DNA of 34,052 nucleotides from Methanobacteriota archaeon (GTDB taxonomy: Archaea; Thermoplasmatota; Poseidoniia; Poseidoniales; Poseidoniaceae), in NCBI GenBank assembly GCA_002710015.1, contig PAOW01000027.1:1-34052 (forward strand). Reading direction: 5' to 3'. The notes under the pieces were generated by a model that saw only the letters and a list, made by a program, of their open reading frames with translations, was not told the origin of the DNA and did not search any database. The position numbers were made by a program, and so were the translations under genes. Below, one piece after another: positions 4,270 to 14,745 of the stretch (position 1 is the first letter of the stretch; the number at the start of each line of letters is the position of its first letter).

Positions 4270-4405
4270 GGGGACTCCTCTGCGCTTTAGGACATGAATC
4301 CTTGCCTGATTTAGTAAACCCCATGAAATACAAATTATCATTGCAAAAATACCATGACTTAAAATTGAGCCTTTCACCAAGCCTAATTACCGGAGGGTGC
4401 TAACT

Positions 4406-6637
4406 ATGTCCAAAGATAGCAATAAATCGATTTCTCTCAAAGTCTCTAAGGCAATCCCGAGTGATGTAGGTCATGGTAGAGCTCGCATAAGTGGTGAGAA
4501 TGGTCTGGATCTAAAACCAGGAGATATTATCGAAATAAAGGGGGAAAAGAGAGCTACTGCTGCTATATACTGGCGCAGCCGTCCAGAAGATTCCAAGATG
4601 GACATAGTTCGTGTTGATGGTATAATCAGAAAAAATGCAGGCGTGAGCCTTGGAGATAAAGTAACCGTATCGAAGGTCGAAGCCAAAATTTGTACTAAAC
4701 TCGTGCTTTCTCCAGTAATGGCAAACAAGCAGAAGGTAAAGTTTGGACCCGGAATTGAAGGATTTGCCAGACGAGGACTCAACAAAAGGCCAGTAGTTGC
4801 TGGTGATAGGATATTTATTCCCGGAATGACATTATTCGCTGAAGCCCTTCCGTTTGCAGTCTTACAGACTACACCTAAAGGAATAGTGCAGGTAAATTCA
4901 GACACAGACATCGTTATCAAGGACGAAGCGATTGATGATGATGACGTTGGGCAATCACAAGGAATTACCTACGAGGATATTGGGGGAATTGGTAGCCAGT
5001 TACTGAAAGTCAGAGAAATGATCGAGCTACCTTTGAAGCATCCTGAACTATTTCGTAGGCTAGGTATTGACCCGCCAAAAGGAGTACTGCTACACGGTCC
5101 TCCCGGAACTGGTAAAACCATGATTGCTAAAGCAGTCGCAACCGAAACAAATGCACACTTTACCTCGATAAACGGTCCCGAAATTATCTCCAAATATTAC
5201 GGGGAGTCAGAAAAGCAACTAAGAGAAATTTTTGATGAAGCGGCAAACAATGCTCCTGCAATAGTGTTCCTCGATGAGATAGATTCAATCTGCCCAAAGA
5301 GAGAAGATGTTAGCGGAGAGGTGGAGCGTAGAGTCGTCGCACAGATGCTAACTCTAATGGATGGTATGCAAGGTAGGGACAATGTAATTGTCATCGGTGC
5401 AACAAACCGAAGAGATGCTATGGATCCGGCATTGAGACGACCTGGCAGATTTGACAGAGAAATTGAAATCGGTGTGCCAGATAGAGAGGGTAGAAAAGAA
5501 ATCCTTGATGTCCATACAAGACAGATGCCCATTGCAGATGATTTCGACGTAGAATGGGTTTTAGAAAACTCATACGGGTTTGTTGGTGCAGACTTGGCAG
5601 CGCTGGTTAGAGAATCAGCAATGAAAGCCCTGAGGCGCTATCTTCCTGAGATAGATTTAGATGAAGACACAATTCCACCAGAAGTTCTTGAAAAAATGGA
5701 GGTAAAGATGGAAGATTTCCGACTGGCTATAAGAGAAATAGAGCCGAGTGCACTAAGGGAAATCTACGTTGAGATTCCTGATGTTTCATGGGATAGTGTT
5801 GGAGGTCTCTCAGAAATAAAAGACCGACTGAAAGAAAGTGTTGAATGGCCACTCACAAAGCCCGAACTATTCGATCACTTCGGCATAAAACCTCCAAGAG
5901 GAATTGTGCTATTTGGTGCTCCAGGAACTGGTAAGACCTTACTAGCCAAAGCAATCGCAAATGAAGCTAAAGCAAATTTCATATCGATAAAGGGCCCTGA
6001 GCTTATATCAAAGTGGGTTGGGGAATCTGAAAAAGCCATAAGAGAAATTTTCAAGAAGGCAAAGCAGTCATCTCCTTCTATAATATTCCTTGATGAATTT
6101 GAATCAATTGCAGGCATGAGGTCCTCAAACTCACAAACCGGTGGCTCAGATGTTTCTAACAGAGTAGTCAATCAATTGCTTGCTAGTATGGATGGAGTAG
6201 AAAGTCTAGATGGTGTGATTGTAGTCGCAGCAACGAATCGCCCTGAGATGATAGATCCTGCATTATTGAGAAGTGGCAGGTTTGAGAGAGTTCTTCACGT
6301 TCCACCACCAGACAAACCTGCAAGAGAAGCGATTATGGAGATACATTCTGAAGGAATGCCACTGTCTACATTCTCGATGAAAGATATCTTATCAGGAATG
6401 GAAGGTTTCACAGGAGCGGACATTGAAGCAGTATGTAGGGAAGCCGCTTTAATTGCGATGCGTGCAGGTAAAAAGAAGGTCACTAAGGCGCACTTTTCTG
6501 ATGCTATTAACCGAGTTCGCCCAACCGTGACCCCAGATATGCTCGAGTATTATTCCAAGATGGAGGAAAGGCTAACTTCTGGACTTTCCAACATCAAGCG
6601 CTCAAGAGATACCGGGTATGGTATGGAATCAATGTGA
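4406..6637 (+). CDS. Cdc48/VAT-type AAA+ ATPase with two ATPase rings
   Basis: A 743-residue archaeal homologue of Cdc48/p97, a hexameric unfoldase that extracts or unfolds proteins, often feeding the proteasome. Layout: N-terminal double-psi barrel and Cdc48-type substrate domain (about 8-175); D1 ATPase with Walker A GPPGTGKT (231-238), Walker B FLDE (288-291) and arginine-finger region RRPGRFD (344-350); D2 with Walker A GAPGTGKT (504-511), Walker B FLDE (561-564) and RSGRFE (622-627). D2 has FLDEFES where many relatives have DE-aromatic-DS, a mild change outside the catalytic glutamate. ATG at 4406 is preceded by GGAGG with a 9-base gap; an in-frame GTG at 4397 overlaps that ribosome site and is less likely. 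It is divergent from the aldehyde dehydrogenase, and the 136-base region between them holds both promoters. Confidence 0.95.
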
Positions 6638-6703
6638 TATTCTCTAATCCGATTTGTTGAAGTGGTAGTAAGGAATAGGTAGAAACACACGAGGGTCATT
6701 AAC

Positions 6704-6943
6704 ATGTCAAGTTTTAGCGCAGAATTCCTGCAAAGAGACGTGGTCGATGTGAATGGAGAATTATTCGGTCATCTAAAGGATATTGTAATCGACTCTCGCA
6801 GTGGAGAGATTACTGAAATTTCAGTAAAGGTTGTAACTGAAATCGATGTGAATAAATTACCATGGCCTACTGTTGATGGCGTTTGTCAGGTACCTGCCCA
6901 AGAGATATCAAAAATATCTTCAAAAATAGTGTTAAAGCGTTGA
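6704..6943 (+). CDS. Short PRC-barrel domain protein
   Basis: A 79-residue protein consisting of one PRC-barrel domain: the opening RDVVDVNGELFGHLKDIVID followed by a charged strand, a PWP turn (about 54-56) and VPAQEISKISSKIVL at the end are typical of the family. The barrel is a small beta fold used for protein-protein contacts in RNA processing (RimM), photosynthesis and, in haloarchaea, cell division, where short PRC proteins (CdpB) work with FtsZ. There are no membrane helices. The ATG has GAGGGT about 7 bases upstream. It is 66 bases downstream of the Cdc48 gene and may be co-transcribed. The role here is unknown; a CdpB-like division role is a hypothesis from length and fold. Confidence 0.8.
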   Translation: MSSFSAEFLQRDVVDVNGELFGHLKDIVIDSRSGEITEISVKVVTEIDVNKLPWPTVDGVCQVPAQEISKISSKIVLKR

Positions 6944-6947
6944 GCAA

Positions 6948-6956
6948 TTTTATATC
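6948..6956 (+). promoter_or_regulatory. TATA box upstream of the DUF4350-DUF58 operon
   Basis: TTTTATATC sits 5 bases after the PRC-barrel stop codon. With normal archaeal spacing, transcription would begin near 6978-6982, giving a leader of about 45 bases before the TTG start at 7025. This indicates the operon has its own promoter rather than relying on read-through. Confidence 0.5.
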
Positions 6957-7024
6957 ATCTGCCCACAACCTTCTAAACCCAAGCGTAAGCGTGTATGTCT
7001 GTATCTTGTACTAGAGGTGACATT

Positions 7025-8644
7025 TTGGGTGACCGACCGCGTTTCAATAAACGAAGGATTATCCTTCAAACAGCGTTTTGGTTTGTTCTAATAATGCTGC
7101 TATCGACCGTTGTCTCACAAGTGATAAACATTGGAAAACAGGATGGACAGTCAGCATATGGGACTGACTGGGATGATCTATCAGCTTTCAGAGAGGACAT
7201 TAACGATATGGGCATAGAGACAAAATCCTTGGTCTCAACTCCTTTACTATTGTCTGATATTGAAGATCCTGCCAACGCAACATTCATTGTAGCAGGTGTA
7301 GAGCGGGACACGCTTTCTATACCTCAGTTCTCAACTGATGGGTTCCTAACATTTTCAACAGAAGACGGTTATACTCCTGCAGAGGTTGATGCAATCAAAG
7401 AATTCGTATTTGCTGGAGGCGATGTTTTAGTGATGGACGATTACGGATATTCTTCGTCTATCGCAGAGGCCTTTGGTGTAAAATTCAAAGGACTACAATT
7501 GTTTGACCCAGTGTACGTTTATGATTTAGATTACAATTTCATTTGGATGTGCGTTCAGGAGTCACCATGTGGAATGAATGGCACAGAGCTTGATAATTCA
7601 ACACTTGAAACTCACAACAGGTGGAATATAGAAGACAGCGGCACCCACATCTGCAAGTTATACGACGGTAAAGAGACCACATCATCTGGAGCAGGTGTTT
7701 GTAGTCAGCACTTTAGAGACGGTGTAATTCAGTATGATTCATCATACAAGGTCTTACTAAACAACATAACTGGGATAGATGTCTTGCCAAATTCTAAAAC
7801 AGGCATGAGCACAACAGAAATACGAGCAGTAACTTCTGCGGAATCCTCGGTAGACGTCAATGGGGATGGTGAGATTTGGGCTGGTAGTGAACAGAACTCA
7901 GAAACTCCAGACCTATGGGGGCAATTTAATCTGTCAATCGAGGTCTGTGTTACTCAGGATTGTAATTTTGCTCAAGGCGGTAGAATTACATTCATCTCAG
8001 ATGGCTCAATTCTAACCAATGCCTTGTATGATTACAAAGGATACAACCAAGGCAAATATGGTGAAACAGACAAAACCATACCAGATAATGACAACAGAAA
8101 ATGGGCGTTAGATTACATCGCAGACTCACTGGTTGACCCTCTTGCAGCGAATAAGACCGAGAGCACACTACCTGTTGTCGCTCCCAATGCAATGGTGATA
8201 TTTGACGAAAGTCGACATATTCAACCAAGTATCGCCTCCGAGTCCTACAATACAATTTACTTCTTGTTGGTATATTTCACAGGAGAAGGTCTAGCAATGC
8301 TACTGTTATTCCTTATCCTATTCATCTCGTTTGAAGCAGTGTTATTGAAAAAGAAGGATCCAGAGCCATGGAGGCACGTATTCTCGATTATTTACTATGG
8401 ATTTGGTGATGCTAATAGATACACATACTATGCAAAATCCAACAAGATCAAGCAGGTATTCCTTTCTAAGGTTAGAAATCAGAATGGCCTTACTAGAGAA
8501 GAATTCGATTCATTACCTGCCCGAGAGCTTCAAAGCATGATTAATGATCCAGTGTTGGTAAAATTCGTCTTTGAGAATAAGAAATACTCACTTGAACAGA
8601 CAGTTGCAATTGTCAAGAGAATAAAGGTATGGGGGCGTTCCTGA
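7025..8644 (+). CDS. DUF4350-like membrane-anchored extracytoplasmic protein
   Basis: About 539 residues. An N-terminal membrane helix follows a basic leader (ILQTAFWFVLIMLLSTVV), then an outside domain, a second helix near the C-terminus (FLLVYFTGEGLAMLLLFLILF region) and a basic cytoplasmic tail of about 90 residues. The segment holding SDIEDPANATFIVAG, FSTEDGYTPAEVDAIKEFV and AGGDVLVMDDYG is typical of DUF4350, a glutamine-amidotransferase-like fold usually encoded beside DUF58 and MoxR genes. Start: TTG at 7025 has GAGGTGA 4 bases before it, matching the ribosome sites of the next two genes; an in-frame ATG at 6995 has none but cannot be excluded. It lies 10 bases upstream of the DUF58 gene. 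Molecular function is unknown; related clusters are thought to act in envelope or chaperone processes. Several cysteines in the outside domain may form disulfides. Confidence 0.7.
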   Translation: MGDRPRFNKRRIILQTAFWFVLIMLLSTVVSQVINIGKQDGQSAYGTDWDDLSAFREDINDMGIETKSLVSTPLLLSDIEDPANATFIVAGVERDTLSIPQFSTDGFLTFSTEDGYTPAEVDAIKEFVFAGGDVLVMDDYGYSSSIAEAFGVKFKGLQLFDPVYVYDLDYNFIWMCVQESPCGMNGTELDNSTLETHNRWNIEDSGTHICKLYDGKETTSSGAGVCSQHFRDGVIQYDSSYKVLLNNITGIDVLPNSKTGMSTTEIRAVTSAESSVDVNGDGEIWAGSEQNSETPDLWGQFNLSIEVCVTQDCNFAQGGRITFISDGSILTNALYDYKGYNQGKYGETDKTIPDNDNRKWALDYIADSLVDPLAANKTESTLPVVAPNAMVIFDESRHIQPSIASESYNTIYFLLVYFTGEGLAMLLLFLILFISFEAVLLKKKDPEPWRHVFSIIYYGFGDANRYTYYAKSNKIKQVFLSKVRNQNGLTREEFDSLPARELQSMINDPVLVKFVFENKKYSLEQTVAIVKRIKVWGRS

Positions 8645-8654
8645 GGTGATTTAG

Positions 8655-9908
8655 ATGTGGACACGCAAGGCTTCATTCACATTTACGGGCGGTATTGCTC
8701 TAATCTTGATTGGAATGATGATTTCCAATCACCAAATGATGATTCTAGGTCTTGCTTTTATCGCTTTCATTGTTGTTAACTCGTGGGTTAGTGGTCATGG
8801 TGATGTAGAGGTCCAAAGGACATTGTCAGCTGATAATTTATACAAGGGTGATGACTTGTATGTCGAGTTACTTGTCACAAACCGAAGTCGCAGGAAAACT
8901 CAGCAATTAGAAGTCTATGACAATGTTCCACATGAGATGAAACTCAGAAGTGGCCTAAATCAAATGAGATTGAATCTCAAGCCTGGTGAAAGTGCTAGAA
9001 TTCGCTACGTTTTGCGTTGTCCACTACGTGGCCACTATTCCATCGGCCCAGTATCTTTACGATATAGAAACACATTCAATCTATCAGTGGATGAAATGTA
9101 TGTAGATCATCACTCTGACATCATAATTTTCCCACAGATAAGAGATGTTGAAGAGGCGTTTATCCGCTCTAGAACAGCTAAGATGTATACAGGTGCTACA
9201 ACATTAAGAACGCCTGGACCGGGAACTGAATTTTACTCTTTGAGAGAGTATGTTCCGGGTGACCCATTCAAGAACATCAACTGGAAGGCTTTTGCTCGAA
9301 CGGGGGACTTGATGATTAACGAAAAATGTAGAGACGCAGTTACTGACCTCTACATTATACTTGATAGCAGAGACATAGCAAGAATTGGAACTGTCCTGAA
9401 GAATCCTCTTGAAATGGGTACCGTCGCTGCTGCGAGTCTCGCATCCTTTTTCATACAAAGAAGAGATTCAGTCTCCCTAACCATATACGACGAAAAGCTC
9501 TCATTTTTACCACCCGATACCGGAGATAAGCAGTATTTCAAGATTTTATCATCTTTAGCAGGAGTTGCACCAAGAGGCACAATGCCATTGCAAGCTGTGA
9601 CAAATAGCTTAGCAGCGAGATTCAGTAGGGGTAGCCCAGTTTTCATTATTTCTTCATGTGAAGGGGATGGAACAGTTCCATCAGCAGTAAGAGATTTGGT
9701 AGGAAGAGGGCACGAAGTGACAGTCCTCTCTCCTTCATCTATCGACTTTGAAAGACTTGTGAGTAGAATACCACGCATGTCGTATGAGGTTTTGAAACTG
9801 GAGCGTCAAAATAGATTGACATCTCTAGCAGGTTTTGGTAGCCAGGTTATTGATTGGATGCCAGATATGGATTTATCACAAGCATTGTTGCAAGTAAGGG
9901 GTTATTGA
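8655..9908 (+). CDS. DUF58 family protein with N-terminal membrane hairpin
   Basis: A 417-residue protein with two adjacent N-terminal membrane helices (about 8-45), an Ig-like beta region (about 50-150, DDLYVELLVTNRS) and the defining DUF58 core LREYVPGDPFKNINWKAFAR (about 197-216), followed by a von Willebrand A-like part starting at LYIILDSRD. DUF58 proteins normally partner a MoxR AAA+ ATPase. GAGGTGA lies 5 bases before the ATG, overlapping the upstream stop. It is the middle gene of a three-gene operon with gaps of about 10 bases. No MoxR gene is present in the window, so the ATPase partner, if any, is encoded elsewhere. Confidence 0.88.
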   Translation: MWTRKASFTFTGGIALILIGMMISNHQMMILGLAFIAFIVVNSWVSGHGDVEVQRTLSADNLYKGDDLYVELLVTNRSRRKTQQLEVYDNVPHEMKLRSGLNQMRLNLKPGESARIRYVLRCPLRGHYSIGPVSLRYRNTFNLSVDEMYVDHHSDIIIFPQIRDVEEAFIRSRTAKMYTGATTLRTPGPGTEFYSLREYVPGDPFKNINWKAFARTGDLMINEKCRDAVTDLYIILDSRDIARIGTVLKNPLEMGTVAAASLASFFIQRRDSVSLTIYDEKLSFLPPDTGDKQYFKILSSLAGVAPRGTMPLQAVTNSLAARFSRGSPVFIISSCEGDGTVPSAVRDLVGRGHEVTVLSPSSIDFERLVSRIPRMSYEVLKLERQNRLTSLAGFGSQVIDWMPDMDLSQALLQVRGY

Positions 9909-9917
9909 GGGAAGATT

Positions 9918-11066
9918 ATGGCAGGAGAGGTGACACCACAAGGTGAAGGAGCGAGATCACTCCACTTGCGTCAACTACGTCTTCAGTGGCAAATTGTTAC
10001 CTTACAAGTCATTGCTACACTTGCATTAGTTTGGATGTATTTGGAGGTAGTATCTACATATGTTGTAGGTAGTATTGATCACACACAATTGTTCGATACA
10101 ATCGAGGCGGGAACAGATACAGAATTACCACTTGCAGATTGGATATCCGGTAGTAACTCTGAGGGGCTAGCACGATTTTATGTGCCACTTGGATTAGGAT
10201 TAGGCCTTGGCGGTGTTATGGCCGTTTTGGCATTCCAAACACCTAAGTTCCAGCAACGAGCGAAACTCGCTTTGATTATTGGAGCGATTCTGCTTTTGGC
10301 TGGTAGGTTTGTCTTGGCCTATGGATGGCAACTAATTGGTGAGGGATGGAGTGTTCCAGATGAGGATGTAATTCAATTACTGAGGTGGCCTCTGTTAACG
10401 ATGCTATCATTCATAATTTTGACATTTTATCTCCTACCAGTTATCACAGGCACGAAAGGAATCTGGGGACTCTCCCGAAGAGGAGTAGCATGGTCGATTG
10501 GGTTCACGCTTCTATTCTTGGGTGTCCATGCTGTGCTTACTTTCCCACTCATTAGAACCCAATTAGGAAGTTATGGCAGCCAACTGACTACTTTGGAGAT
10601 AATAGTATCAGAGCCGACGGTTTTTGGATTGGTAACTGCGGAACAAATCTCGCTTATTTTAATCGCATGTTTGATGATGGTATTCCAGGAGTCTGCATTC
10701 GGGGTAATCAGGCAATTAGAGTATGCCTACAGACTCCCAGAATCTTGTAAGAGAGATCCTGAGTATGTGGCTCAAATGGATAATATACTGAATGGCCATA
10801 TCAGGCATACCGCTCTATTCCTCAGTCTTACCGTTGTAGCAACAACGGTGGCACTCGGATTCCACTCGGTTTTACTTGATCTTGTGAGTGGTATTACGGG
10901 ATCGCAGTGGGCTGCTCAAGTTGGCGAATCTATCGAATTAACTCTCACATATGGCTTAGTGATTTCAGCTCTGTTATTCTTAGGAATCATGGCGCTGCTT
11001 AGGTTTGTAGTTCCTTGGCAGAGGTTTTGGGGTCTAATAGAATCATCATTCAATTCTAGAAATTGA
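9918..11066 (+). CDS. Multi-pass membrane protein of the DUF4350-DUF58 operon, unknown function
   Basis: A 382-residue protein with about seven to eight predicted membrane helices (near 25-48, 90-108, 118-138, 155-175, 190-210, 238-256, 295-317, 338-362) and a charged cytoplasmic loop around 262-292 (LEYAYRLPESCKRDPEYV). I do not recognise a family. ATG at 9918 follows GAGGGA, 9 bases after the DUF58 stop, so it belongs to the same transcript. Given the membrane-bound partners, it probably forms the membrane core of their complex. Its stop codon touches the stop codon of the convergent gene at 11067 with no base between. Confidence 0.7.
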   Translation: MAGEVTPQGEGARSLHLRQLRLQWQIVTLQVIATLALVWMYLEVVSTYVVGSIDHTQLFDTIEAGTDTELPLADWISGSNSEGLARFYVPLGLGLGLGGVMAVLAFQTPKFQQRAKLALIIGAILLLAGRFVLAYGWQLIGEGWSVPDEDVIQLLRWPLLTMLSFIILTFYLLPVITGTKGIWGLSRRGVAWSIGFTLLFLGVHAVLTFPLIRTQLGSYGSQLTTLEIIVSEPTVFGLVTAEQISLILIACLMMVFQESAFGVIRQLEYAYRLPESCKRDPEYVAQMDNILNGHIRHTALFLSLTVVATTVALGFHSVLLDLVSGITGSQWAAQVGESIELTLTYGLVISALLFLGIMALLRFVVPWQRFWGLIESSFNSRN

Positions 11067-11267
11067 TTATTTCGTGTATGCATTTTGTAGAATACGGCCT
11101 AGTATTTCCGATAACAGCACAACAATCATTGGTAGACCGCATAGCCAAGAAATCCATAATTGGAATCCAGACAATGAATCTTTTAGCTCATACCCAACAT
11201 AAACAGCAGCAAATATTGCTGTTAGAAAAATAATTTTCTCAATCCATAGAGGATAAGGCTGTCCCAT
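11067..11267 (-). CDS. Small two-helix membrane protein in the Roadblock cassette
   Basis: A 66-residue protein with two hydrophobic helices (about 10-27 and 35-55) joined by a short polar loop. The start ATG is 8 bases after the stop of the 1044-residue gene, with GGTGG in that gap, so translation is coupled. No family recognised. As the last gene of a cassette whose other products are soluble and coiled-coil proteins, it may provide the membrane attachment point. The ORF has a clear ribosome site and operon position, which supports a real gene despite its size. Confidence 0.62.
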   Translation of the reverse strand: MGQPYPLWIEKIIFLTAIFAAVYVGYELKDSLSGFQLWISWLCGLPMIVVLLSEILGRILQNAYTK

Positions 11268-11275
11268 TAGCCCAC

Positions 11276-14200
11276 CTACAAATCGATTCCATCCAGCGAT
11301 TCTTCTAAATCATCAAGTGTTGAATCGGTAAATTCCGCTGATTCTACGGGGTCCGACCTTCTCGCCCATCTAGCATCTAGCCTAGCTAACTCTTCTTCAA
11401 GAGTTGCTCTTTCATCACTTTGTGCGATTAAATTTGTGCTGCTATCAAGTGTTTCTATTTCCTCATCCACAGGAGTAGACAATTCCGTCCATTCCTCAGT
11501 GATTTCGCTTGCTTCGACAGCTACTGCTATTTCTTCATCAATCAACTCGCCTTTCATTTCTTCAATGGCAGTTTCATTTACAGGTTCTCTTTCTCCAGCG
11601 GGCATAGAATCCCTTTCGAATGGTAATATTCCATCTCTTTTGAAATCCCACAGCGCTCCTCTAACTTCTCCCTTTACGAATCCACTAGCATCTAATTGAG
11701 TGAGTAATTCTTCTAGAGTTGTGGTTGTTGCCTCAAGTTTAACCGCAGAGCCTGCGTCTCTCATATCAGATTCTAGGTGTATATCATCCAGTGCCTTTTG
11801 AATGAGTGACCGGGTCTCTCTAGCAAGGACAGGTAACGATTCAGGCCTTTTTGTATTGTTGAGGAGTGCTTGGACTTGCTCGGGAGGAGCTCCAAGTCTC
11901 TCCAGTTGTTCGAGCACGTTTTTTATCCTTCGCAGCATAGTAATAGAGCGATCATAATCCTCTAACAGATTCTCTAGATCTAAAACTAGGCTGGTAACGG
12001 TTTCACCAAGTTGGTGCTCGAGTCTTTGTTGAACAGACCATCTTGCTAAACCACGAACAGCACCAGCAGTCTGAGGTACTTGCCTCTCAAGTAAGGACAT
12101 CACCTCATTAGACAATAGATGACGTGGTGTTCTTGCGACGTGATCCACGCATCCCTGTATCACTTGTAGAGCCCTTTCTACTGCACGATCTAGGAGGGAG
12201 ACTGAGTAGCCTAAGGTTCTGGCATGCTCTAGTCGCTCCAATACCGGTCCAAGCGTGTTGAATTGTTTATTTTCATGAAGTAGAGCCTGTGCAAGCGGCT
12301 CTTCTGACAACCTCGCTCGTAGTAATTCAGCCTCTTTGATATCTGATAGAGCCTCTTCGTGAGCAATAGCAAGCGCCTCTGCTTGGTCAAGTAAATTCGA
12401 TAACTCACCTTCAGCCTGGCCACGCCTTGCTCCAAGGTCACCTAATTCTTTCAAAACCTGTCTTCTTTCATCCATTAATTCACGCATTTCGGATTGTATA
12501 TTCGCTGCTCTATTCTCTTGTTCATTAAGACGGATACGATCTTCTTGAGTTCTTTCTCTAGCAACCTTGGCTTCAGCTTCGACCTGTTTCAGCCTTAATT
12601 GTGAGTCACTAATTTTGGCTTCAATCTCTGATAACTCACTCTGTGCTCGCCTGTGTTTATCTCTTGTGGCATCGACCTGTTCTTCTATCATTCTCTGCCT
12701 TCTCTGATCATCCTCAATTCTCGAACGAATGCTCGCTAGAGTTTCAGAGTATGAGTCTATGTCACTCGATAGTGCGGCTTCTTTGGTTGCCATTTCTTCG
12801 ATTTTGGCAGATAATTCAGAACTAGCTTTACTATCTCCTAGAATTCTTGCCAATTCAACAGCTCTTTCGCTTAACTGATGTTCGAGTTCATTAACTCGTT
12901 TGGATAATCTATCACTTCTAGCCTCAGCATTTTCAGTGCTCGCTTGAGCAGCTGAAATATCGAGTTGCATCTGATCGATAGTCTTGTTATAATTCGCAAT
13001 CTTGTTTTGAATATCAGCGACTTGTTTATCTGCCTCAATAGCACTAACCTTAGCGGCACTTTCCGATGCCTGGGCGGAATCTAATGCAACCCTTAAGCTC
13101 TCAATATCTCGTAAGGCTTCTGATAATTTTACCTCAGACTGTTCTAATTTTCTTCGCAATCCATCATCAATACCAGTTGATGTATCTATCTTGGTCAATC
13201 CAGTTGAAGGGACTGAGATTGTAATGTTGAATTCGTATTTTGTCCTTTCCTTTCGCAGTTTCTGCAAACCTATCTCAAAACCATATAATTGTCTCAAGTT
13301 TTGACCTAGCAATGCTTGACGAGATTCTGATCTTGTTCTTGTTGTTGCTAATTCTTCACAGAATTTTTCGAGATTGAAATCTGGAACGTTTCCTGATTCT
13401 GGACCCAGAATTGTTCCTGTTGGCAATCTGTGTAATGTCAAAACCCTGCGAGATTCAGTCAGCGAATTTACAGCTTCGACGATTTTTGTTTGCTTAGGGG
13501 CTTGAATCGCAACAGGAACTCCTTTGACAAGAGCAACTCTGACGGCTTTTGATGACTTTCCGGCACATAGGTGCCCAGTGAGCCCTTCCTCAACTGCGGA
13601 ATTTAACATCGAAACTATTGCATCAGTCCCTCCTCTTCCTTCTCGGACTACGTGCCCGTCACTCAATGGTTCTCCGCCCATTCCCATAATTTCAGCTTGA
13701 CCTTCCATCACAGATGCAATCTGATTGATAAGGCGGCCGTGATCTACGTCTGCTTCGGTCCAAACAGCTAGTGCCACATCACCAGCTTCAGCCAAAAGTA
13801 GTGCGCCATCATCTGTATGTAGTGTCCAGTGGCCCTCGCCGTCAAGACCCAAATCGGTGGCCATAGCCTTCCTGCCGGCCAAGGTTTCGCCCACTTGCGT
13901 AGCTAGGCTATCGGCAGTTGAGGGTAATTCCCCAGCATCATGGATAAGCATCCCAGAGTCAACAGCAATTCCTCCTCTTACCTCTGGTCGTTGTACGAGG
14001 TTGTCTAGAATTACGGAAAGGTCCCTAGAGAGCAATCTCTCAAGCGAGTCGCCTGAACCGATTAAACCTCTCATGTCTGCATTATGTTCGAATGCTTCTG
14101 GAATTATTTGAGCAACTGAGCCTAGTGCGCTTTGGCTCCAAGCTCTCGCTACAAGCCTGTGGCCGTCTGCTTCTAGTTCTGTTAATCTCTCTTTTGCGGC

Positions 14201-14410
14201 AATTCCGCAAAGAAGCGTTTTTCCTGTCGCAGGTTCAGCAACCCACCCTACTATTCTGCCCGAACGTATGATTCTGTGACCGCTTGCAGTAGATCTTCTT
14301 CCAAGATAGGTAGTGATACAACCATACTCAAATGGTAAGATAGCTCCATCTACCACATCTATTTCGTCATCAACTAGCACTCCGTATGGTAAATCGAACA
14401 CGTCTATCAC
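11276..14410 (-). CDS. Large P-loop-like, Roadblock-like and coiled-coil protein, possibly a scaffold
   Basis: A 1044-residue protein starting with GTG in a GTGA overlap with the stop of the upstream Roadblock gene. Regions seen: 1-115, a beta-rich part with a Walker A-like motif AEPATGKT (58-65); 124-238, a Roadblock/LC7-like segment (RPEVRGGIAVDSG, then DDGALLLAEAGDVALAVW); 258-332, an alpha/beta domain resembling DUF4388-type modules (weak); 418-705, a long coiled coil rich in E, Q, R and A; 715-925, further helices; 940-1044, a strongly acidic tail. It would be labelled SMC-like by its coiled coil, but it has no SMC signature motif, C-terminal ATPase lobe or hinge. No convincing Walker B follows the P-loop, so ATP or GTP binding is unproven. 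It may be a scaffold pairing its internal Roadblock-like domain with the neighbouring Roadblock protein, possibly regulating a small GTPase or the cell envelope. Function is unknown. Confidence 0.72.
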   Translation of the reverse strand: MIDVFDLPYGVLVDDEIDVVDGAILPFEYGCITTYLGRRSTASGHRIIRSGRIVGWVAEPATGKTLLCGIAAKERLTELEADGHRLVARAWSQSALGSVAQIIPEAFEHNADMRGLIGSGDSLERLLSRDLSVILDNLVQRPEVRGGIAVDSGMLIHDAGELPSTADSLATQVGETLAGRKAMATDLGLDGEGHWTLHTDDGALLLAEAGDVALAVWTEADVDHGRLINQIASVMEGQAEIMGMGGEPLSDGHVVREGRGGTDAIVSMLNSAVEEGLTGHLCAGKSSKAVRVALVKGVPVAIQAPKQTKIVEAVNSLTESRRVLTLHRLPTGTILGPESGNVPDFNLEKFCEELATTRTRSESRQALLGQNLRQLYGFEIGLQKLRKERTKYEFNITISVPSTGLTKIDTSTGIDDGLRRKLEQSEVKLSEALRDIESLRVALDSAQASESAAKVSAIEADKQVADIQNKIANYNKTIDQMQLDISAAQASTENAEARSDRLSKRVNELEHQLSERAVELARILGDSKASSELSAKIEEMATKEAALSSDIDSYSETLASIRSRIEDDQRRQRMIEEQVDATRDKHRRAQSELSEIEAKISDSQLRLKQVEAEAKVARERTQEDRIRLNEQENRAANIQSEMRELMDERRQVLKELGDLGARRGQAEGELSNLLDQAEALAIAHEEALSDIKEAELLRARLSEEPLAQALLHENKQFNTLGPVLERLEHARTLGYSVSLLDRAVERALQVIQGCVDHVARTPRHLLSNEVMSLLERQVPQTAGAVRGLARWSVQQRLEHQLGETVTSLVLDLENLLEDYDRSITMLRRIKNVLEQLERLGAPPEQVQALLNNTKRPESLPVLARETRSLIQKALDDIHLESDMRDAGSAVKLEATTTTLEELLTQLDASGFVKGEVRGALWDFKRDGILPFERDSMPAGEREPVNETAIEEMKGELIDEEIAVAVEASEITEEWTELSTPVDEEIETLDSSTNLIAQSDERATLEEELARLDARWARRSDPVESAEFTDSTLDDLEESLDGIDL

Positions 14411-14745
14411 CTAATAACCGAGTTCAGCATGTCTACATCGCATTCCACTGCGTGTCTCCACCTTGCAATCCTACCACTGTTTCCAGAAATAACCAAACTT
14501 GCGTCATCGCTAATACGGGTCAACAGCAGCATATTTCCTCCTTCTTGCCAAAGTTCCAATCCTCTCCCGATGTTGGATTTCTCTCCCAATCTTTCCATTG
14601 CTTGAACAATGTTAGCGGTATTTTCGATGTTTGGAACTTTACCTTTGTTACCAACAAATGCCAGTAATCCATTTTTTTTGGAAATGAGGTATGCTTGTTT
14701 TGCTCCTGGAAGGGTGGTAAATCCTGCCAAAATGCGTTGCATCAT
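14407..14745 (-). CDS. Roadblock/LC7-like domain protein
   Basis: A 112-residue single-domain protein. The order of elements fits the Roadblock/LC7 (MglB-like) fold: a helix with PGAKQAYLISKKNGLLAFVG (first strands), a long helix around NIVQAMERLG, the strand pair GLELWQEGGNMLLLTRI and DDASLVISG, and a final helix. Roadblock proteins dimerise and regulate Ras-like GTPases or act as scaffolds. It overlaps the next gene by four bases, implying equimolar coupled synthesis. There is no ribosome site at the ATG, so the transcript may be leaderless or the gene may start at its second methionine. A longin or profilin-like relative is the main alternative. Confidence 0.6.
   Translation of the reverse strand: MMQRILAGFTTLPGAKQAYLISKKNGLLAFVGNKGKVPNIENTANIVQAMERLGEKSNIGRGLELWQEGGNMLLLTRISDDASLVISGNSGRIARWRHAVECDVDMLNSVIR

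Follow-up and report, generated by a model that had tools for sequence, protein, structure and literature searches.

Roadblock domains are known, from bacteria to eukaryotes, as platforms for small GTPases. In the eukaryotic p14-MP1/Ragulator system, a Roadblock heterodimer without a long coiled coil acts as a scaffold for Rag GTPases. In the other described systems, the small stand-alone proteins MglB and MglC of Myxococcus and Thermus act on the Ras-like GTPase MglA, GTPases resembling Rab and Rag occur in the Asgard archaea (PMC10933270), and the conservons of actinobacteria combine a GTPase with a kinase and a conserved protein (PMC4316618). Heteromeric complexes are common among Roadblock proteins (PMC9481161), and orphan MglB/Roadblock genes, which do not adjoin an MglA-type GTPase gene, made up 328 of the 749 genes in one survey, by whose account none had been characterised by 2014 (PMC4316618). 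The subject of this report is a pair of adjacent genes, J and I, in a 34,052-nucleotide stretch of DNA (the window; contig PAOW01000027.1 of assembly GCA_002710015.1) from an archaeon of the order Poseidoniales, the genome of which is represented by 1.7 Mb in 41 contigs and is 82% complete.

Both genes were found to encode a predicted Roadblock domain, and the best reading of J-I is an orphan heteromeric Roadblock scaffold, in which J and I would be the two subunits of a Poseidoniales-specific complex with no Ras/Arf/Roc-type switch; the probability of this reading was put at roughly 0.45. Orphan Roadblock genes are already known as a class, beyond which J-I offers a fixed pair, a long coiled coil, and a helical region without a PDB match. 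A sequence-only reading of the window had described three coupled open reading frames (ORFs) on the minus strand and proposed a self-contained scaffold, which is a reasonable inference for J-I. Inspection of the ORFs upheld their positions and strand (J at 14407-14745, I ending at 11276, and a small protein, H, at 11067-11267) and the 8-base spacing between I and H. The features are as follows.

14407..14745, minus strand: J, 112 residues, Roadblock/LC7 protein as judged from the family profile against Roadblocks of the PDB and Pfam PF03259 in relatives
11276..14401, minus strand: I, 1041 residues, most likely starting at codon 4 of the ORF in the sequence-only reading (alignment of relatives)
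14066..14362, minus strand: I residues 14-112, N-terminal alpha/beta region with no family match (model; predicted local distance difference test, pLDDT, about 85-93 per block)
14216-14224, minus strand: GKT within I residues 14-112
13694..14038, minus strand: I residues 122-236, predicted Roadblock domain (model against the PDB, profile, Pfam)
13346..13675, minus strand: I residues 243-352, second alpha/beta region with no family match (model)
12299..13165, minus strand: I residues 413-701, coiled coil (heptad periodicity; SMC coiled-coil matches)
11582..12298, minus strand: I residues 702-940, conserved helical region (highest block conservation; all-helical model)
11279..11401, minus strand: I residues 1001-1041, acidic, conserved tail at the C-terminus, preceded by a variable linker (block conservation)
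11067..11267, minus strand: H, 66 residues, two hydrophobic segments, a neighbour outside the J-I unit (hydrophobicity, locus comparison)

The alignments used were chosen subsets from which rows with unread letters had been dropped: A1 (23 rows of I, chosen from 33 full-length rows plus others), A2 (25 rows of J), A3 (51 N-terminal regions of I from 83, near copies removed), and A4 (29 rows from 53, with the same near-copy filter plus added rows). Window J by itself had no Pfam match, and a single-sequence search of the PDB with it returned chance matches only. With the family profile, the Asgard Roadblocks ranked first in the PDB (7f8m, expectation value (E) 1.6e-9; 7yh1, 7.3e-7), followed at a lower level by MglC (0.0059) and, more weakly, MglB (0.073). 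PF03259 was above its cut-off in two J relatives of the second Poseidoniales family (locus L057, E 9e-8; L060, 7.7e-6), reached 0.1 only in a third (L063), and matched 13 of the 25 aligned members at E<=1. The earlier claim that the 112-residue protein is Roadblock-like was thus borne out, and J is, on these profile matches, a member of the Roadblock/LC7 family (PF03259). It resembles MglB and MglC in domain family and in being small and stand-alone, and differs from them in having a 1041-residue coiled-coil protein as its proposed partner.

Protein I has 22 relatives at 34-90% identity, with conservation far beyond chance. A model of residues 1-395 built from 51 sequences had a mean pLDDT of 85 and a predicted template modelling score (pTM) of 0.66, and a fold search of the PDB with this region gave 3kye as the best match (E 4.5e-7), then Asgard Roadblocks, MglB, and p14-MP1/Ragulator; the Asgard structures 7f8m, 7yh1, and 9jue, among which are the closest solved relatives of J, thus also ranked high among the folds that I matched. 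The top PDB sequence for the profile of the N-terminal region was the actinobacterial conservon protein CvnB5 (3leq, E 0.0026, residues 132-230), and PF03259 gave sub-threshold matches in 5 of 51 N-terminal regions (best 2e-4). Profile and predicted fold together place a Roadblock/LC7 domain at residues 122-236, next to the 124-238 that had been claimed in the longer numbering. When J was compared with this domain by hhalign, 93 columns were aligned (single-comparison E 0.0011), and the five other domain pairs remained unaligned.

Block conservation (25-residue blocks, A1) was 0.50-0.70 over residues 1-375. The two regions that flank the Roadblock domain, residues 14-112 and 243-352, had no Pfam family and were not alike by hhalign, which gave no sign of an origin by duplication. 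The strand and helix order of residues 243-352 resembles what we take to be that of DUF4388/PATAN; the DUF4388 check proposed earlier gave no profile support, with no match at E<=1 in the 51 N-terminal regions and none in 145 genomes of the phylum, while 3 of 14 control genomes were positive. A Thermus plasmid record, viewed over its first 50 kb, named no DUF4388 protein that could have served for comparison. The P-loop-like motif that had been reported in I is not a conserved Walker A: GKT occurs in 3 of the 23 rows of A1 and GKS in none. Identity as a P-loop NTPase was rejected on this motif conservation, and since GKT is not common to the family, the suggestion that this region acts as a switch or is a degenerate remnant falls away in both its forms.

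Of the 75 distinct I starts for which 400 bases or more were available, 74 have J directly upstream (three more starts had too little sequence and were left out), and at the sole exception the intervening stretch reads N; the tight coupling proposed for the two genes is therefore confirmed. The overlap (GTGA) proposed for them is unlikely, because Met-Phe at codon 4 opens all 33 full-length rows and all 51 aligned N-terminal regions, a check not fully independent in that the scripts sought a start near codon 4. The alignment places the most likely start of I at 14401, which gives 1041 residues instead of 1044 and, in the window, probably a gap of 5 bases after J with no overlap. Across the 74 loci, with the I start taken as the start of the profile match, gaps ranged from -8 to +13 bases and included 10 overlaps (1 base in 8, 8 bases in 2).

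The claimed coiled coil of nearly 290 residues was recovered as a proline-free, heptad-periodic stretch at about residues 413-701, where the power at 3.5 residues was 2.50 against 1.02 in shuffles and none of 500 shuffles was as high. Conservation was highest in I over residues 651-900 (0.67-0.90) and, after a linker at 0.38-0.49, rose to 0.57-0.62 over residues 1001-1041 (A1). The model of residues 640-945 was all helical (mean pLDDT 82, pTM 0.61) and found no PDB match at E<=0.001; a FliS-like match of the C-terminal region (1orj, E 0.023) was treated as chance because the fold search found nothing.

Distribution was followed in 118 genomes of the class, most of the sampled genomes being 70-96% complete, in which f1 and f2 denote two families of the Poseidoniales; f1 was read as Poseidoniaceae, f2 is presumably Thalassarchaeaceae, and f3 is presumably another order. 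I was present in 63 of the 118: 52 of 53 f1 genomes plus 11 f2 genomes, of the genera g14, g16, g18, and g21, which may also include members without I. The only f1 genome without I (G081) had no match to the neighbouring gene TtuA either, so an assembly gap is the probable cause. Within this phylum, as covered by profile searches, I was found only in the Poseidoniales: the profile of its C-terminal region matched 82 of 389 genomes, all f1 or f2. Four pattern matches on viral contigs included no relative.

Seven f2 loci without I retain the TtuA, membrane protein, DUF58, DUF4350, and CDC48-like genes, the TtuA and membrane protein genes being 90-360 bases apart, and the profiles of J and of both ends of I gave nothing better than E 0.48 on their 809 ORFs. 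A midpoint-rooted tree built from neighbouring genes (24 rows, 1275 columns) groups the seven rows without I in one clade with support of 100/100, and two deep f2 branches are supported at 86/75 and 91/69. Given one clade and a root between f1 and f2, on which this depends, the tree suggests that J and I were lost together, once and cleanly, with H kept. This loss would fit the report that MGIIb genomes, most basal clades excepted, are about 400 kbp smaller (Tully, PMC6336850), if the published clades correspond to the family codes used here.

Neither the window nor the loci viewed showed a GTPase gene linked to J-I, in agreement with the earlier statement that none is encoded beside the trio, and the search was extended to whole genomes for Arf and Roc at E<=0.001, leaving PF00071, Rag, and GPN models unsearched, so that the absence covers the Arf and Roc profiles only. 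Arf (PF00025) matched no f1 or f2 genome and 11 of the 118 in all, each of them f3; Roc (PF08477) matched 12, namely the same 11 and one f1 genome, G066. In the latter, three short, exon-like matches succeed one another on one contig and a fourth lies on another, and these are probably contamination. The matching pieces (on G066:C7 and G066:C15) resemble eukaryotic exons. Identity as a module of the MglA-MglB type found no support, in that a cognate Ras-like GTPase was absent from the loci and, for the Arf and Roc families, from f1 and f2 genomes, G066 excepted, and J-I likewise differs from the conservons in that its unit holds no kinase, conserved protein, or GTPase. As a separate observation, each f3 genome has a Ras-like GTPase gene of about 179 codons, behind which a common pair of genes, the second TPR-like on inspection, stands in all three loci viewed (L153-L155).

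A Roadblock domain in each protein, adjacency at nearly every locus, and joint absence from one clade are the grounds for reading J-I as a scaffold; the absence of Arf and Roc families from f1 and f2, one probable contaminant excepted, is the ground for reading it as one without a Ras-type switch. The anatomy of I, in which a rod joins an assembly module to a conserved region at the opposite end, also speaks for a scaffold. Its coiled coil would turn I into a dimeric rod, about 43 nm long at a rise of 0.15 nm per residue. Because Roadblock domains dimerise, and in view of gene adjacency, mutual similarity, and the heteromeric habit of the family, J would pair with the Roadblock domain of I or bridge two of them, and together they would form a platform at the N-terminal end; p14-MP1/Ragulator is comparable as a Roadblock heterodimer in use as a scaffold. 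At the opposite end, the conserved helical region would hold a further partner, so that the complex would tether or position something, in service of a trait of larger-genome lineages that reduced lineages gave up. That this trait belongs to particle-associated, larger-genome lineages is conjecture based on published work.

Several points weigh against the scaffold: the hhalign probability for the match between J and the I domain is only 20.5%; the five models of the C-terminal region of I span mean pLDDT values from 74 to 82 and are less certain; the far-end partner is only postulated; and PF00071, Rag, and GPN GTPases lay outside the searches, so a switch may exist. The strongest form of the proposal, a Roadblock machine without any Ras-type GTPase, in which a two-subunit, rod-like tether of about 43 nm, retained across a dominant marine order, would use its Roadblocks purely for assembly and carry a far-end helical domain of unseen fold, is accordingly put forward tentatively and is more doubtful than not. 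A Roadblock pair without detected Arf or Roc GTPases in abundant marine archaea raises the question of whether the domain also serves pure assembly, and it points to a role that could be sought for two linked genes of the Poseidoniales, a group without a cultured member according to papers of 2019. The layout matched no described system in the open-licence literature searched, as the sequence-only reading had supposed, and the word Roadblock does not occur in the main text of two genomic papers on the order (PMC6461757 and PMC6336850).

The alternative that survives best, although it is unlikely, is that J-I is an ordinary Roadblock regulator (a GTPase-activating or guanine nucleotide exchange factor-like protein) of a non-Arf/Roc GTPase encoded elsewhere, such as one of the GPN-loop type (ATP_bind_1 family). 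Roadblocks have been viewed as NTPase regulators, and those conservons from which CvnB5, the top PDB sequence for the I domain, derives pair Roadblock with GTPase (PMC4316618). The 328 of 749 genes that lie away from their GTPase in the same survey also favour this alternative; against it stand the lack of a linked GTPase in the window and viewed loci and the lack of any candidate among the families searched, which did not include GPN.

A membrane-anchored complex of J, I, and H, with H as its anchor, is improbable. H has the two hydrophobic segments described for the 66-residue protein, and a two-segment ORF follows I at 61 of 63 distinct I ends with 420 bases available (one further end was too short); in the window the spacing is 8 bases. 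What speaks against the anchor is an H-like ORF at the same place, between the TtuA and membrane protein genes, in six of the seven f2 loci that lack J-I (E 3.8e-7, 3.8e-6, 1.3e-4, 4.4e-4, 0.0037, and 0.047). The first five outscore all unrelated ORFs, but the last (0.047) is beaten by an unrelated membrane ORF (0.0059), and its assignment depends on where it lies and on its strand. H is therefore a separable neighbour, and of the proposed conserved trio, the J-I part stood and the H part did not: the conserved unit is J-I, not J-I-H. The H-like ORFs of the loci without J-I (L134-L139) share a conserved N-terminal motif around Pro-Leu-Trp-Ile-Glu-Arg.

Still less probable is a role for J-I in organising the archaellum, or cell polarity for it, after the manner of Mgl proteins in bacterial motility, which would agree with the fold matches of I to MglB and with the joint occurrence of I and archaellin in f1 and two f2 genera. 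The mismatches run in both directions, as I occurs without an archaellin match in g16 (3 genomes) and g21 (1), and archaellin without I in g20 (2) and g13 (3, single weaker matches), and the order has no identifiable chemotaxis genes in the account of Rinke et al. (PMC6461757); an archaellum-associated role was not supported. The least probable alternative, that I is an SMC/Rad50-like chromosome protein, draws on matches of residues 415-720 to NCBIfam SMC models (E 2e-11), of an archaeal SMC-related model (0.06), and of JetC (3e-5, from a defence library that gave coiled-coil matches only), all of which lie in the coiled coil and far under the cut-offs (42.4 against 567 bits), in a protein with no ATPase head in Pfam (only AAA_13, E 4.2, over the coiled coil) and no conserved P-loop.

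The J-I-H run is flanked by a TtuA-like gene on one side and by membrane protein, DUF58, and DUF4350 genes on the other. Window positions 4397-11066 hold a run of CDC48-family ATPase, PRC-barrel, DUF4350, DUF58, and membrane protein genes that is retained with or without I.

A second Roadblock gene, R2, unlinked to J-I, was found in 61 of the 118 genomes: in f2 exactly the 11 that bear I, and in f1 50 of 53 (missing in G035, G053, and G101). This co-occurrence with I was not counted as a functional link. The genomes without I form one clade, so the shared absence is perhaps one event, and it is no proof of a shared pathway because a PurP-like gene is missing from them too (no match in the seven f2 genomes G001, G003, G005, G009, G024, G036, and G056; two matches each in G000 and G047). 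In the source genome, R2 lies on the minus strand at G000:C37:9432-9719 (in L161), and what we take to be a GNAT-like and a PurP-like gene are among its neighbours. At this and the other loci viewed (L087-L094), R2 stands between the GNAT-like gene and a coiled-coil gene, so that both small Roadblock genes adjoin a gene for a coiled-coil protein.

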